34,971 nt of DNA from a virus, in the IMG/VR virus record IMGVR_UViG_3300037575_000058, positions 1 through 34,971 of that record, one strand, 5' to 3'. This document shows, one piece after another, positions 100 to 34,971 of the stretch. Each line of letters begins with the position of its first letter. Position 1 is the first letter of the stretch. The notes under the pieces were generated by a model that was not told where the DNA came from, did no database searches, and saw only the letters and a list, made by a program, of their open reading frames with translations. Position numbers and translations under genes: made by a program.

Positions 100-125
100 C
101 TTAATCGGCAAAACCAAATGTAAAG
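100..125 (+). repeat. Left terminal inverted repeat (transposase end site)
   Basis: Starts CTTAATCGGCAA and ends in the core ACCAAATGTAAAG (113..125). It matches the right end (34837..34862, read inward on the minus strand) at 23 of 26 positions. The element end is CTTAA rather than the TG usual for Mu family ends. The core is presumably bound by the transposase. Confidence 0.9.
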
Positions 126-29538: not shown

Positions 29539-30468
29539 TTACTGTAGTTTTATCTTTTCTCTAATTATCACTCGTTTTAATCGACGTAAATCATCAATTA
29601 CCTTCACACTGGTAACTTCTTTGGGTCCTACTGGAATGTCTTTGTAGACAGGCTTTAAACTCTCAAAGATTTCTTTCTGGAGTGTCGTGTCCAAAACTCC
29701 ATTGATAGCGCAAATTTTGCGGACACAATCCATGGTAGCACCCATCAATCCAATGTAAGCCCGACCAAATCGACTCTCTAATTCATCAAATCCTAACCGT
29801 CGTAATCGAACGCCTCGGATTATTTTTTGCTCCAAGTGTGGCGTTCCTGCTATGATGAGACTCATTTCATCTTCACACTCATTGAATAAGTGAATAAACC
29901 AGCGCAAAGAAGATTCTTTGAGCTTGTCAGCCTCATCAATTATCAATAAGGGTTTTTGAGTGCTTCTCTTTTTGAAAAAATTCACGACTTTCATTCCTAA
30001 CTGATCTACTTTTGTGTAGCTTTTACCCGTATCTATGCCCAATGTGGTGCATAACTCCAATAGAAAGTCACGCTTTGCCCACTCTCTACTGCATATATAG
30101 AACACAGATTCGTTGGAATGTTCCTGGGCAAAGGTTTTCAAACTTGCGCTTTTCCCAATCCCCGCCTTGTCCGCTATAATCATAAATAAACTGTGGGCTT
30201 TAGCATCTGTACAGATGTTTGCTACTTTACGGTAATTGATGGTTTCAGCTATCTGCCAGCTTGCAGAACTGTACCCAAGCGCGTGTCCTACTTTTAGCCA
30301 CATTTCACCCGTAATTAACGTCCAATTCCCTTTTACCATTTGCGTAATGGTGGCTCCGGATACATCTGCCTTGGTTGCAACCTTGGCGTAACTGCCTAGC
30401 CTCTTTTTTTCTGTATGAATGTGCTGGACAATGGTTTGTTTTTGTAAATTTGTCATATCTAAAATCAT
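29539..30468 (-). CDS. MuB-like transposition target ATPase
   Basis: 309 residues. N-terminal HTH (YAKVATKADVSGATITQMVKG, about 27..47), Walker A DKAGIGKS (100..107), Walker B LLIIDEAD (174..181) and a sensor-like IIAGTP (205..210). This is the AAA+ MuB family, which coats target DNA, stimulates MuA and gives target immunity. It is 2 bp downstream of the transposase gene. The start could also be Met5 (30456). Confidence 0.9.
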   Translation of the reverse strand: MILDMTNLQKQTIVQHIHTEKKRLGSYAKVATKADVSGATITQMVKGNWTLITGEMWLKVGHALGYSSASWQIAETINYRKVANICTDAKAHSLFMIIADKAGIGKSASLKTFAQEHSNESVFYICSREWAKRDFLLELCTTLGIDTGKSYTKVDQLGMKVVNFFKKRSTQKPLLIIDEADKLKESSLRWFIHLFNECEDEMSLIIAGTPHLEQKIIRGVRLRRLGFDELESRFGRAYIGLMGATMDCVRKICAINGVLDTTLQKEIFESLKPVYKDIPVGPKEVTSVKVIDDLRRLKRVIIREKIKLQ

Positions 30469-30470
30469 TT

Positions 30471-32567
30471 TTAAAATTCGTTGTGAATATTGTTTAAGAC
30501 AGCGTTCGCAATGTCATCCGGGGTATAGTCTGCTCCGGATGCTTTTTTAAGTGGAATTTGAGCCGTCTCATTCATGTAATTTTCTTCAAATTGATTGGCT
30601 TCTTTCTTTTGGGTAAAAGGTCCCATCAGTAAAGACTCTTCGCCTATCATTTCCTCTAGTTTGTTTTCTTTATGAACTTTGATTTCCAAGGCTCGTTTTT
30701 TAGCCTCTGCCATTTTTCCGTACTCTTTATTGGGTCCTGAAAGTTGTGGACGATCAAACAATTGCGCGCTGCATAGAAATGACAGTAATTGGTCGTGTTT
30801 TTTCCATAAAAACACTTCTGATAAGTCATCCAAATTATAGCTTACAACTACTTTTTGGTTGAATTGATTGGCAATGATCCCAAAGTATTCGGACGGAACC
30901 ATGTAATCAAAAGGAACGCCTACAATCTCAGTAGTAAATTGACCATCATTTCGAAGCGTTAGTTCTTTTTTCAAGTCAAACAGCATGGAAATACGCTGTT
31001 TATCTGCCCATATTACATTTGGCTTTTCGCTTTCCTCATGCAATTGAGCAGGCGTTTTATCTATTTTACTATGCTTTCTTGAGTACCAGTTAAGCGGTGT
31101 AGTTCTATACTTCTCTATGGTAATGCTCGCTGATTCTACGGCTTTCTCTAAATTCCAACCTTCCTTTTTGGCTTCTTTTCTGACTCTTGCTAAATACTCT
31201 GCACTACGGTGAGCGTATGAGGATCTGGATTTAATTCCTTCACCATAGAAATATTTGGTTTCCATCATGAATACGGATTGAAGGGTGCGGAACCAACGCT
31301 CTAACTTTGCTTTTTGGTTTGCGTTATGGCTAAAATCTACACGAACTCCTAACGTTTCCATTCGTGTAAATAAATCTTTCAATTGGGGCGTATTGTGTCC
31401 CGGGAATCTATCAGTAATCAGTTCGTACGGTAAATAACCTGCATTTTCAACGGCCATTTTCATCGCTTGATGATACACAGCATGGTTTTCTGAATAGTCA
31501 AAACTATAACCCAATACATCTCCACTGTGAACGTCACGTATAGCGACTACAAATAGATGACGATCTTTCCCATCTTCTGCAGTATGTGCAATGACATTGT
31601 ACCGAGTGGCATCCATTTCCCAACAGTCACCTGCTGAAATTGCATTTGCCGTGGGTATATATCCTTTGAACATCTGTGATTTACTGTTACCTGATCCATA
31701 TCGTTTCTCACCGGTTAAATACTGCGTGATCGGTTGCTCAAAAATAGAAGTGCCAAACCATCTTCTTGACGGGGTTTTCTTGCCTGTTAATTGACACATT
31801 TCTTTGACTTTGCGAATGATAAATTCGTTGCTAAAGTTTGCGTCCATACTGCGCAACTGCATAGCCCAACTAAACACCTCAAAATCTGTATAGAGTTCTG
31901 CGTTTGCATTGCCTACTCTGGGTAGGTAAATTAAACCTACAATGCTGTTGCCCGGTTTTTCTAACTCCACCATCTTTTCTTTTAATCGAATAGGGTGATG
32001 GGGTATATATTGCATGTCCATTTTCTTTAAAATTGGACTTAGATCGTTATAAATTTGATTGGCCGTTCCTGGATAGTCGTCTTTTTCATCCAAAATAAAA
32101 TCTAGTACTGCACACGCTTTTGCAAGTGCTATTTGCTGCGGTGGAAGTGTCTCTGAATAGAAAGAGAGATAGTTCTTATAAACCTTGTTTAAATGCTGTT
32201 TAAACCGCTGCTCTATTTGAGTCTCTTCTAAATTTCTACACACATATTGCCAGTGCTCTATTAGTGCAGCTTCGTCACCAAAACGGCTACGGTATCTAGT
32301 AGGTGCCTTGTCAGGAATATTCGCAAGACAGTAATAATATTCGGACTGGATCCGAGCCCACCGCCAACTTTTGCCACTGTCTGGCATATAGTCCTTGGCT
32401 TTGGCTAAATCACATTCGCGAATTGATTTTTTGTATAATGGACGTGCCTTTTTCCATAAATAAGATTCAGTAACTCCACACAGCTCTACCAGTAGCCTCT
32501 GGGCTATCCAAGTGGACTCTACGCCGTTGGCTTTTCTGATGATTATGTCTGTGGGTTGTAAATTCAT
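30471..32567 (-). CDS. MuA-like DDE transposase
   Basis: 698 residues from the ATG at 32567 (MNLQPTDIIIRK). A GTG at 32627 would add 20 residues read through a conserved hairpin, so the ATG is preferred. An N-terminal DNA-binding part (about 1..230) precedes the RNase H core with Asp319 in DCWEMDATRYN, Asp386 in YELITDRFPGHN and Glu423 in NQKAKLERWFRTLQ. The C-terminus is charged and helical, as expected for contacts with MuB. It cuts and joins the element ends, both for integration and for replicative transposition. Confidence 0.93.
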   Translation of the reverse strand: MNLQPTDIIIRKANGVESTWIAQRLLVELCGVTESYLWKKARPLYKKSIRECDLAKAKDYMPDSGKSWRWARIQSEYYYCLANIPDKAPTRYRSRFGDEAALIEHWQYVCRNLEETQIEQRFKQHLNKVYKNYLSFYSETLPPQQIALAKACAVLDFILDEKDDYPGTANQIYNDLSPILKKMDMQYIPHHPIRLKEKMVELEKPGNSIVGLIYLPRVGNANAELYTDFEVFSWAMQLRSMDANFSNEFIIRKVKEMCQLTGKKTPSRRWFGTSIFEQPITQYLTGEKRYGSGNSKSQMFKGYIPTANAISAGDCWEMDATRYNVIAHTAEDGKDRHLFVVAIRDVHSGDVLGYSFDYSENHAVYHQAMKMAVENAGYLPYELITDRFPGHNTPQLKDLFTRMETLGVRVDFSHNANQKAKLERWFRTLQSVFMMETKYFYGEGIKSRSSYAHRSAEYLARVRKEAKKEGWNLEKAVESASITIEKYRTTPLNWYSRKHSKIDKTPAQLHEESEKPNVIWADKQRISMLFDLKKELTLRNDGQFTTEIVGVPFDYMVPSEYFGIIANQFNQKVVVSYNLDDLSEVFLWKKHDQLLSFLCSAQLFDRPQLSGPNKEYGKMAEAKKRALEIKVHKENKLEEMIGEESLLMGPFTQKKEANQFEENYMNETAQIPLKKASGADYTPDDIANAVLNNIHNEF

Positions 32568-32587
32568 TTTTCCTATTTTATAAAAAT

Positions 32588-32608
32588 GCTTGTCTTTCCA
32601 AGCTGTCA
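32588..32608 (-). promoter_or_regulatory. Conserved hairpin before the transposase gene
   Basis: Minus strand GCTTG-GAAAGA-CAAGC followed by ATTTTTATAAAA, ending 20 nt before the transposase ATG, with TGACA just upstream. It matches the hairpin at 26642..26662 with two paired changes. It resembles an intrinsic terminator and may attenuate transposase expression. Confidence 0.65.
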
Positions 32609-32642
32609 AGCGGGCGTTATCCTTCACGCTGTGCCATCTTTG

Positions 32643-33867: not shown

Positions 33868-33897
33868 CAAAGATATAAACAATTGTCTAATCAGCAA
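33868..33897 (-). promoter_or_regulatory. Early promoter with operator (Pe)
   Basis: On the minus strand TTG (33897..33895), 19 nt, then TATCTTTG (33875..33868) fits the Bacteroidota consensus TTG-N19-TAnnTTTG. ATTAGACAATTGTTTA (33891..33876), containing the palindrome ACAATTGT, fills the spacer, where a bound repressor would block polymerase. The first early ATG is 33 nt downstream of the box. Confidence 0.8.
33876..33891 (-). repeat. Operator candidate O1
   Basis: ATTAGACAATTGTTTA on the minus strand, identical over 16 bp to 34076..34091 on the plus strand. It lies between the -33 and -7 elements of the early promoter and so is a good candidate for the site bound by the S24 repressor or the Ner-like protein. 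Confidence 0.7.
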
Positions 33898-33926: not shown

Positions 33927-34721
33927 ATGAAAGCAATTGACAGAGTGAAGAAATACATTGAATACAAAGGCTTTAACAATAGTTCATTTGAGAAAATAAA
34001 TGACTTGTCTAATGGCTACATAGGCACTCAGCTTAAAAGAAATGCTGATTTAGGAGAAAGTGTTTTAATAAAAATATTAGACAATTGTTTAGATTTAAAT
34101 GCTGAATGGTTATTGACTGGAAATGGAGAGATGCTTAAAACCAAATGTAAAGAAAATGCCACCATTAAAAACGGTGGCGCAAATGGTGGCATAAATGGTG
34201 ACAAACCAAATGTAAAGAAAACCTTACCCATGGAATCGGTTGGGCGGGGTCATTTGATTCCTTTATATGATGGTGTGGTAACAGCAGGGACCTATTCCAT
34301 AGCCGATCTAAGCCCACAACATGAGGCCGTGGAGTATGTAGATGCTGGTGACTGGTTCCGAGACGCAACCGCCGCCATGCGTGTGCATGATGACTCTATG
34401 CACCCAGAGTATAAAAGTGGGAGTATTGTGGCTTTAAGGCTAGTTAATGACCGTACCCTTATAGTATATGGGCAAGACTACGTAATAGAAACAAATGAAT
34501 TTCGAGTTTTGAAAAGATTACAGCGGTCAGAAAAAGAGGACCACTGGTTATTAGCGTCGGTTAATATGGATGTATGGCAATTAGGCCCTTTGTCCGGGCG
34601 GTTGATCCATGAGCCTTTTGAGATTAAAATAAAGTCCACAAGTCGTTTATTCAGGGTTTTAGGCAATATAAAAAGGAATGAGAGCAGTCGAATAGTCTTT
34701 AATAAAAGTAAAGATCAATAA
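33927..34721 (+). CDS. LexA/CI-type phage repressor with S24 peptidase domain
   Basis: 264 residues. N-terminal HTH (about 1..70, SSFEKINDLSNGYIGTQLKR, then AEWLLTGNGEML, typical of Bacteroidota CI-like repressors). A Gly/Asn linker (about 71..100) follows, then an S24 peptidase with cleavage site Ala120-Gly121, Ser157 in HDDSMHPEY and Lys196 in FRVLKRL. RecA-stimulated self-cleavage would release lysogeny. It is transcribed away from the early operon, with operator O1 between the two genes. The linker-coding DNA holds two copies of the terminal repeat core. Confidence 0.92.
   Translation: MKAIDRVKKYIEYKGFNNSSFEKINDLSNGYIGTQLKRNADLGESVLIKILDNCLDLNAEWLLTGNGEMLKTKCKENATIKNGGANGGINGDKPNVKKTLPMESVGRGHLIPLYDGVVTAGTYSIADLSPQHEAVEYVDAGDWFRDATAAMRVHDDSMHPEYKSGSIVALRLVNDRTLIVYGQDYVIETNEFRVLKRLQRSEKEDHWLLASVNMDVWQLGPLSGRLIHEPFEIKIKSTSRLFRVLGNIKRNESSRIVFNKSKDQ
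34076..34091 (+). repeat. Operator candidate O2 inside the repressor gene
   Basis: Exact 16-bp copy (inverted relative to O1) of ATTAGACAATTGTTTA, about 200 bp from O1 and within codons for the repressor HTH domain (KILDNCLD). A repressor bridging O1 and O2 could loop the DNA or block elongation. Confidence 0.65.
34140..34152 (+). repeat. Internal transposase-site copy 1 (ACCAAATGTAAAG)
   Basis: Exact copy of the 13-bp core of both terminal repeats, within the repressor linker coding sequence. It is read in the phase acc-aaa-tgt-aaa-g (T-K-C-K). It may act like the Mu internal activation sequence that binds transposase. Confidence 0.75.
34205..34217 (+). repeat. Internal transposase-site copy 2 (ACCAAATGTAAAG)
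   Basis: Second exact copy, 65 bp from the first and same orientation, but read in a different phase, cca-aat-gta-aag (P-N-V-K). The match is thus at DNA level and not a protein repeat. With its flank it also shares AAACCAAATGTAAAGAA with the left end. Confidence 0.75.
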
Positions 34722-34836
34722 TCAAATAATGAACATATTTCGGCAAAAAATAAAGGGATCCATTCTTCTATGTTAATTTATATCGGCAAAAATGAACATA
34801 GAATTGTTATGTATTAATGTATTTCGCTCTGTAAGC
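34722..34836. promoter_or_regulatory. Right end subterminal region with repeated TCGGCAAAA and hairpin
   Basis: No gene is seen. TCGGCAAAA, present in the left terminal repeat, occurs twice (near 34740..34748 and 34783..34791). A 9-bp inverted repeat TTCTATGTT/AACATAGAA (34766..34774 and 34795..34803) encloses the second copy and may terminate the repressor transcript. The region probably holds secondary transposase-binding sites. Confidence 0.5.
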
Positions 34837-34862
34837 CTTTACATTTGGTATTGCCCTTTAAG
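34837..34862 (-). repeat. Right terminal inverted repeat (transposase end site)
   Basis: Read inward on the minus strand it starts CTTAAAGGGCAAT and ends ACCAAATGTAAAG, matching the left end at 23 of 26 positions (differences at positions 6, 7 and 13). Immediately outside is TTCG. Confidence 0.9.
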
Positions 34863-34866
34863 TTCG
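34863..34866. repeat. Target site duplication, right copy (TTCG)
   Basis: Second copy of the 4-bp target duplication, directly outside the right terminal repeat. It belongs to the host PA-domain gene (codons around Val-Thr-Lys). Confidence 0.85.
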
Positions 34867-34971
34867 TAACAAAGTCACAATCTCCTCTTCGTATTAAAAC
34901 AATTTTCCCATTCAGTTCGGCTGTGTTTGTAATATTATCACAACCGTCGTTTGCATCCGTTCCACCATTTG
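34863..34971 (-). pseudogene. Host PA-domain protein, upstream fragment
   Basis: On the minus strand this encodes NGGTDANDGCDNITNTAELN, then GKIVLIRRGDCDFVT, the first half of a PA domain (GKIVLIRRG and CDF are conserved). After the prophage boundary the frame would enter the right terminal repeat and stop within about 20 codons. Together with 1..99 it forms one interrupted host gene, probably for a secreted protease. Confidence 0.88.

Follow-up and report, generated by a model that had tools for sequence, protein, structure and literature searches.

The window, the whole 34,971-nt stretch of viral DNA analyzed here, is a Mu-like prophage set in host DNA. As in Mu-like transposable phages, genes for a Mu-type transposase (30471..32627, minus strand; 718 amino acids as listed, with a conserved start, Met21, at 32567) and a MuB-like AAA ATPase (29539..30468, minus strand; PF13401, E 4.8e-17) lie downstream of a divergent repressor gene, and inverted end cores mark the S, or late-gene, end (113..125, plus strand) and the c, or repressor, end (34837..34849, minus strand), with host DNA outside. 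The transposase matched the putative DDE transposase of phage fF4 (E 1e-26), the two aligning over half the length at about 25% identity, and gave no match in a Pfam search. The repressor gene (33927..34721, plus strand) encodes an N-terminal helix-turn-helix (HTH), a linker that hosts the array described below, and a Peptidase_S24-like C terminus (PF00717, E 4.3e-10).

By eye, the flanks (1-100 and 34850-34971) appear to be two parts of one host gene, putatively PA domain-like, and its reading frame does not close across them. A thymidylate synthase-like gene (435-986; PF00303, E 2.1e-13) adjoins the late end of the prophage. Near the c-end, phages of clade 1 carry repeated ATGTTMATT boxes (34720-34836 in the window), and the c-ends of clade 2 carry CCGTTATT/CCGATATT boxes; both are possible extra transposase end sites.

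Copies of the end core within the repressor gene

A sequence-only reading of this DNA had pointed out that ACCAAATGTAAAG, the core of both element ends, recurs twice in the repressor linker. This was confirmed: the window contains exactly four exact copies, two at the ends and two in the linker, with no further exact or one-mismatch copy in the window, and the mean count in 100 dinucleotide shuffles was 0.00. The first linker copy (CORE1, 34140..34152, plus strand) lies in codon phase 0 at a position conserved in relatives; the second (CORE2, 34205..34217, plus strand) lies in codon phase 2 at a core-to-core distance of 65 bp, which is not divisible by three. The copies are translated as T-K-C-K and P-N-V-K, and the two reading frames originally described are thus borne out. 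When the repressor linkers of relatives were checked, the same core pair was present, which strongly supports the suggestion that the repressor hinge may have been tuned to host the sites. A lack of the core in relatives with matching ends, named in that reading as a refuting outcome, was thus not observed.

A fixed-geometry array between the core copies

The two linker cores are the flanks of a larger element of fixed geometry, CORE-N6'-9-N6-6-N6-6-N6-CORE-N6', with a period of 65 bp, in which N6 is GGTGGC in the window. Three direct copies lie at 12-bp steps (GGTGGC at 34173..34178 and 34185..34190, and GGTGAC at 34197..34202, all on the plus strand), preceded by an inverted copy, N6', at 34158..34163 (GCCACC, that is, GGTGGC on the minus strand). 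The second N6' position (34223..34228, minus strand) is degenerate in the window (CTTACC, equivalent to GGTAAG) and agrees with N6 in most relatives. A fixed-geometry scan of the whole window ranked this array first (score 26 versus 24 for the next match), and its four-copy score of 23 compares with a maximum of 21 in 20 shuffles. Like the Mu enhancer (the internal activation sequence, or IAS, at operators O1-O2), the array is an internal cis element, distinct from the ends and less than about 1 kb from the repressor-side end; in the window, 683 bp separate it from the c-end core.

A transposase search of viral contigs yielded 17 relatives (47-61% identity), and this set was enlarged with Weeksellaceae genomes and more viral contigs; a viral search with the repressor as query found no relatives. 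The same layout was present in about 38 related Bacteroidetes Mu-like phages (CORE-about 5-N6'-9-N6-6-N6-6-N6-about 3-CORE-about 5-N6'), with identical spacing of 9, 6, 6, and about 20. The repressors of these phages fall into different C-terminal classes and bear N-terminal HTH domains of several kinds, with this one common DNA layout between. A detector given the geometry alone, without N6 sequence, ranked the array, on the repressor strand, first or close to first in most phages whose repressor end is intact, with scores often reaching 28-30 of 30 compared to shuffle maxima of 25-28. The distance from array to c-end core was 650-685 bp in the main clade, 630-815 bp in other phages, and about 303 bp where the array is non-coding. 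No array was found in the repressor region of L195, one of the Porphyromonas phages (transposase about 25% identical), or in the distant N-domain carriers L045, L047, L048, L025, L244, L252, L259, and L261-L263, several of whose contigs are incomplete.

N6 varies between phages, and its copies agree inside each phage. Variants comprise GGTGGC (window), GGTAAC/AGTAAC, GGTAAG, GATAAC, GATAAG, TATAAC, TGTAAG, TGTAAC, GTTAGT, GAGGAC, GGTGAC, AGTCAC, TATCAC, GACCAC, GATGAC, and others. The choice of N6 was not blind throughout, as L109, L114, and L014 carry two arrays each: the array common to L109 and L114 was taken, the other array of L114 scoring one point higher, and the linker array served as the N6 source in L014. 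The arrays of L249 and L112 are weak, and their N6 was read by eye.

In L023, L024, and L106, the whole element is non-coding and immediately follows the repressor stop codon; where it is coding, N6 occupies codon phases 0, 1, and 2. Because it is non-coding in three phages and occupies three codon phases elsewhere, the array is a DNA-level element, and the idea that it is constrained at that level is strongly supported. Its original placement within the repressor coding region holds for the window and most relatives and fails for these three phages. A protein-level or chance origin would have a low-complexity Asn/Gly/Lys-rich linker simply happening to hold the end core, and the linkers do look like protein repeats (NGGANGGINGD, KENGKENGK), because a 12-bp step spans four codons. 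The 65-bp offset that puts the cores in two frames, the inverted copies, three codon phases, non-coding copies, and the covariation of N6 with the transposase (see below) all speak against such an origin. It was rejected as having next to no probability; the sequence-only reading had likewise dismissed a protein repeat as the cause, and the two frames together with the non-coding copies rule it out.

A hairpin in the repressor transcript, with N6' pairing with N6, would account for the complementarity of N6 and N6' in nearly every phage, and the hairpin of the window is more stable than those of shuffled sequences (z −2.2 to −2.5), a comparison that leaves out L104, whose folded stretch lay off the array. 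AT-rich versions of the array, however, do not fold (L009, z −0.1), an Rfam search of the array gave no match, three direct copies at a fixed 12 bp would not be needed, and covariation with a transposase recognition helix would not be expected. Based on the folding and Rfam results, the hairpin was rejected as extremely improbable.

Covariation of N6 with a transposase recognition helix

AlphaFold2 predicts with confidence (mean pLDDT 92.7) that the N-terminal domain of the transposase (32238..32567, minus strand), the proposed binder of the array, is a winged helix-turn-helix. Residues 34-47, the second HTH helix of the model, hold the segment YLWKKARPLYK (32430..32462, minus strand), which covaries with N6. 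Across 25 phages, N6 distance tracked the distance in these 11 helix residues and not that in the rest of the domain. With 38 phages, the correlation of N6 and helix distances was 0.53, and the partial Mantel correlation given the rest of the domain was also 0.53 (0/10,000 permutations, which ignore ancestry), while the rest of the domain, given the helix, showed a partial correlation of −0.06. The best 11-column windows lay on the helix (0.54), compared to 0.18 for the best elsewhere.

Two rules describe this relationship. In 31 of the 32 phages without a one-residue insertion, G at base 6 and Trp at residue 37 are either both present or both absent (p 1.7e-7), with L196 as an exception (Glu with G); the same holds for G at base 2 and Lys or Arg at residue 39 in 37/38 phages (p 1e-9). 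Ancestry was addressed by counting changes on a tree built without the helix, in which base and helix-residue changes, about 9-10 independent ones each, were nearly always coupled. The rules were written before further phages were added, and these additions, found by array DNA alone or through the N-domain protein, with the array then located blindly, obeyed the base-2 rule in 13/13 cases and the base-6 rule in 9/10; the added set includes L249 (same contig as L050), which was known before the prediction, and L243, which is close to L113. Together, the rules suggest a readable recognition code in which Trp versus Lys/Arg at one helix position would set base 6 and Lys/Arg at another would set base 2, such that the enhancer sequence could be predicted from the transposase sequence and the reverse.

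The covariation strongly supports binding of the N6 array by the transposase N-domain. As in the Mu enhancer, the site would be read by the transposase's own N-terminal DNA-binding domain, and the proposal of a transposase-linked internal enhancer thereby gains strong support. One part of that proposal requires revision: the enhancer sites had been equated with the end sequence, and the specific sites appear instead to be the N6 repeats between the cores, with the core copies as flanks. Outside clade 2, the flanking core is the phage's own end variant in 12/15 cases, a weak covariation (p 0.09). The flanking core ACGAAAACTCC of L254/L255 was not found at their contig ends, so the identity of core and end is not universal. 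Given the 12/15 figure and this mismatch, the interpretation is least certain about what the core copies do.

Phage operators commonly lie near the repressor, a position that would suit the array as an operator bound by a Ner-like regulator or by the phage repressor itself. The Mu enhancer, moreover, overlaps operators (PMC3820752). N6, however, does not vary with the N-domain of the repressor (r 0.14; partial −0.04 once the transposase helix is accounted for), one HTH type occurs with GATAAC, GGTAAG, or GTTAGT arrays while different HTH types occur with GGTAAC, and a better operator candidate, AGACAATTGTTT, is located at 33873 and 34076. Since N6 does not track the repressor, this explanation was rejected and is considered very unlikely. 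The candidate sites themselves (33873-33891 and 34076-34094) form a 19-nt inverted pair around ACAATTGT that is 95% complementary, one copy lying upstream of the repressor and the other inside its coding sequence; judging from this arrangement, they are likely the repressor's own operators, one of them in coding DNA.

A natural swap of helix and array

Flavobacterium phage fF4 is inducible (PMC7761591). By gene order, it and the fF4-like transposable prophages of Bacteroidetes belong to one phage group with the window's phage, and they share a related N-domain and the same linker element; the main text of the fF4 paper (PMC7761591) never uses the word "enhancer". From repressor to transposase, the DNA of fF4 and that of the L196 prophage are for the most part 95-100% identical; the two differ in the repressor N-domain plus array, one non-homologous intergenic stretch, and one 60-bp patch of the transposase gene. 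Their transposases show 19 differences in 747 amino acids, 11 of which fall in residues 28-46, the recognition-helix region, and the arrays read GATAAG in fF4 versus GATGAG/AATGAG in L196. The fF4 helix (YFWIARNRYK, compared to YLESVRNVYK in L196) matches that of L108 (YFWIARHRYK), and N6 is the same in fF4 and L108. From these alignments, fF4 and L196 are a natural swap of helix and array together. As the repressor N-domain was exchanged too, this pair alone cannot separate repressor from transposase.

The transposases of Mu and D108 act on similar ends and differ in N-terminal domain and enhancer preference. fF4 and L196 resemble them in these respects and differ in that little more than one helix is replaced in a near-identical transposase; unlike in Mu and D108, many specificities occur within one family here.

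Comparison with the Mu enhancer

In MuA, the N-terminal winged HTH subdomain Ialpha binds the enhancer and other domains bind the ends (PMC3362531), and the Mu enhancer is found next to the repressor gene, close to the left end (PMC5977238). The domain described here, which would read its array as indicated by covariation, is similarly an N-terminal winged helix-turn-helix separate from the end-binding part, and it has the same position and winged-helix secondary structure as Ialpha. Sequence and fold searches for homology to Ialpha were nonetheless negative: hhalign detected none between the N-domain and MuA residues 1-76 (probability 0.6), and Foldseek returned no significant fold match for the N-domain model in the PDB. 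A Pfam search with the N-domain also gave no match.

The array differs from the Mu enhancer in several ways. It lies inside the repressor reading frame, or behind the stop codon in three phages, unlike the intergenic operator region of Mu; it is built from short monomer sites, some of them inverted, together with two end-core copies at its flanks; and its N6 differs among phages in step with the recognition helix, not with the repressor. Overlap with repressor operators, as found in the Mu enhancer, was not detected, as judged by the covariation test alone. Because N6 does not track the repressor DNA-binding domain, a coupling of the decision through operator/enhancer overlap of the Mu type is not seen. 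By location, a link of the array to lysogeny control is plausible. The array would work like the Mu enhancer; with operator overlap and an intergenic location not found and homology to Ialpha undetected, it is a putative member of that class.

The Mu-type transposases of Leptospira prophages, also from a non-enterobacterial group, are missing the enhancer-binding domain, which "so far appears specific to Mu" (PMC8705779). In contrast, the phage family of the window, and the Bacteroidetes phage group as a whole, appears to have a functional counterpart of this Mu domain, with a site that overlaps a protein-coding gene. None of the papers searched describes such a repressor-embedded array.

Proposed function of the array

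By analogy with Mu, we infer an enhancer function for the array. It is quite probable that the array represents a transpositional enhancer (internal activation sequence) located in repressor linker DNA, bracketed by end-core copies, whose N6 is read by the transposase N-domain. The winged-helix domain would insert its recognition helix into N6, which is offered three times in direct orientation, at 12-bp steps, and also in inverted form, and the flanking end-core copies would probably be contacted by the end-binding part of the transposase. The array may in this way load and orient the transposase, and protomers assembled there would be handed to the two element ends. Many of these phages have nearly identical ends and different N6, so the array would make the reaction phage-specific.

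The same coevolution of N6 and helix would be expected if the N-domain, bound to the array, controlled transcription instead, acting as a roadblock in the repressor gene that lowers repressor levels once transposase is made, and in almost every phage the repressor transcript does include the array, either within the gene or immediately after it. With the arrays of L023, L024, and L106 behind the stop codon, however, the protein would not be cut short; the end-core copies and the rigid 12-bp and 65-bp spacing would not be needed; and in L149 and L260 a matching array lies far from the transposase. We therefore regard a roadblock as unlikely and favor the enhancer.

That array and helix change together suggests a switch site licensing each virus to jump. 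A possibility that we hold with somewhat more doubt than confidence is that the array and the helix form a rapidly diversifying pair that serves as a phage-private key: with shared ends, and N6 array and helix switching together, a transposase would activate its own genome alone among co-resident relatives, and the placement of the key beside the immunity domain would cause immunity and transposition specificity to be exchanged together. Small swaps would allow direct tests of how specific the enhancer is, how that specificity evolves, and how it relates to superinfection among related prophages.

Additional arrays and N-domain contexts

The linkers of L109 and L114 contain two complete arrays with different N6 (TATAAC plus GTTGAC or GTTAGT), and L014 has two as well (GTTAGT plus AGTAAC); in each phage, the present transposase helix seems to suit one of the two arrays alone, and the other may be a relic, a decoy, or a second specificity. 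L149 (7890-7922) and L260 carry a GGTAAC array that is well formed and has core-like flanks; it lies about 9 kb downstream of a helix-matching transposase, adjoins a host-like RNase Z gene, and is apparently near the other end of the element. Finally, L110-L114 and L194 (fF4) carry the same winged-helix N-domain before strongly diverged transposase bodies, as if this domain were exchanged as a module between transposases.
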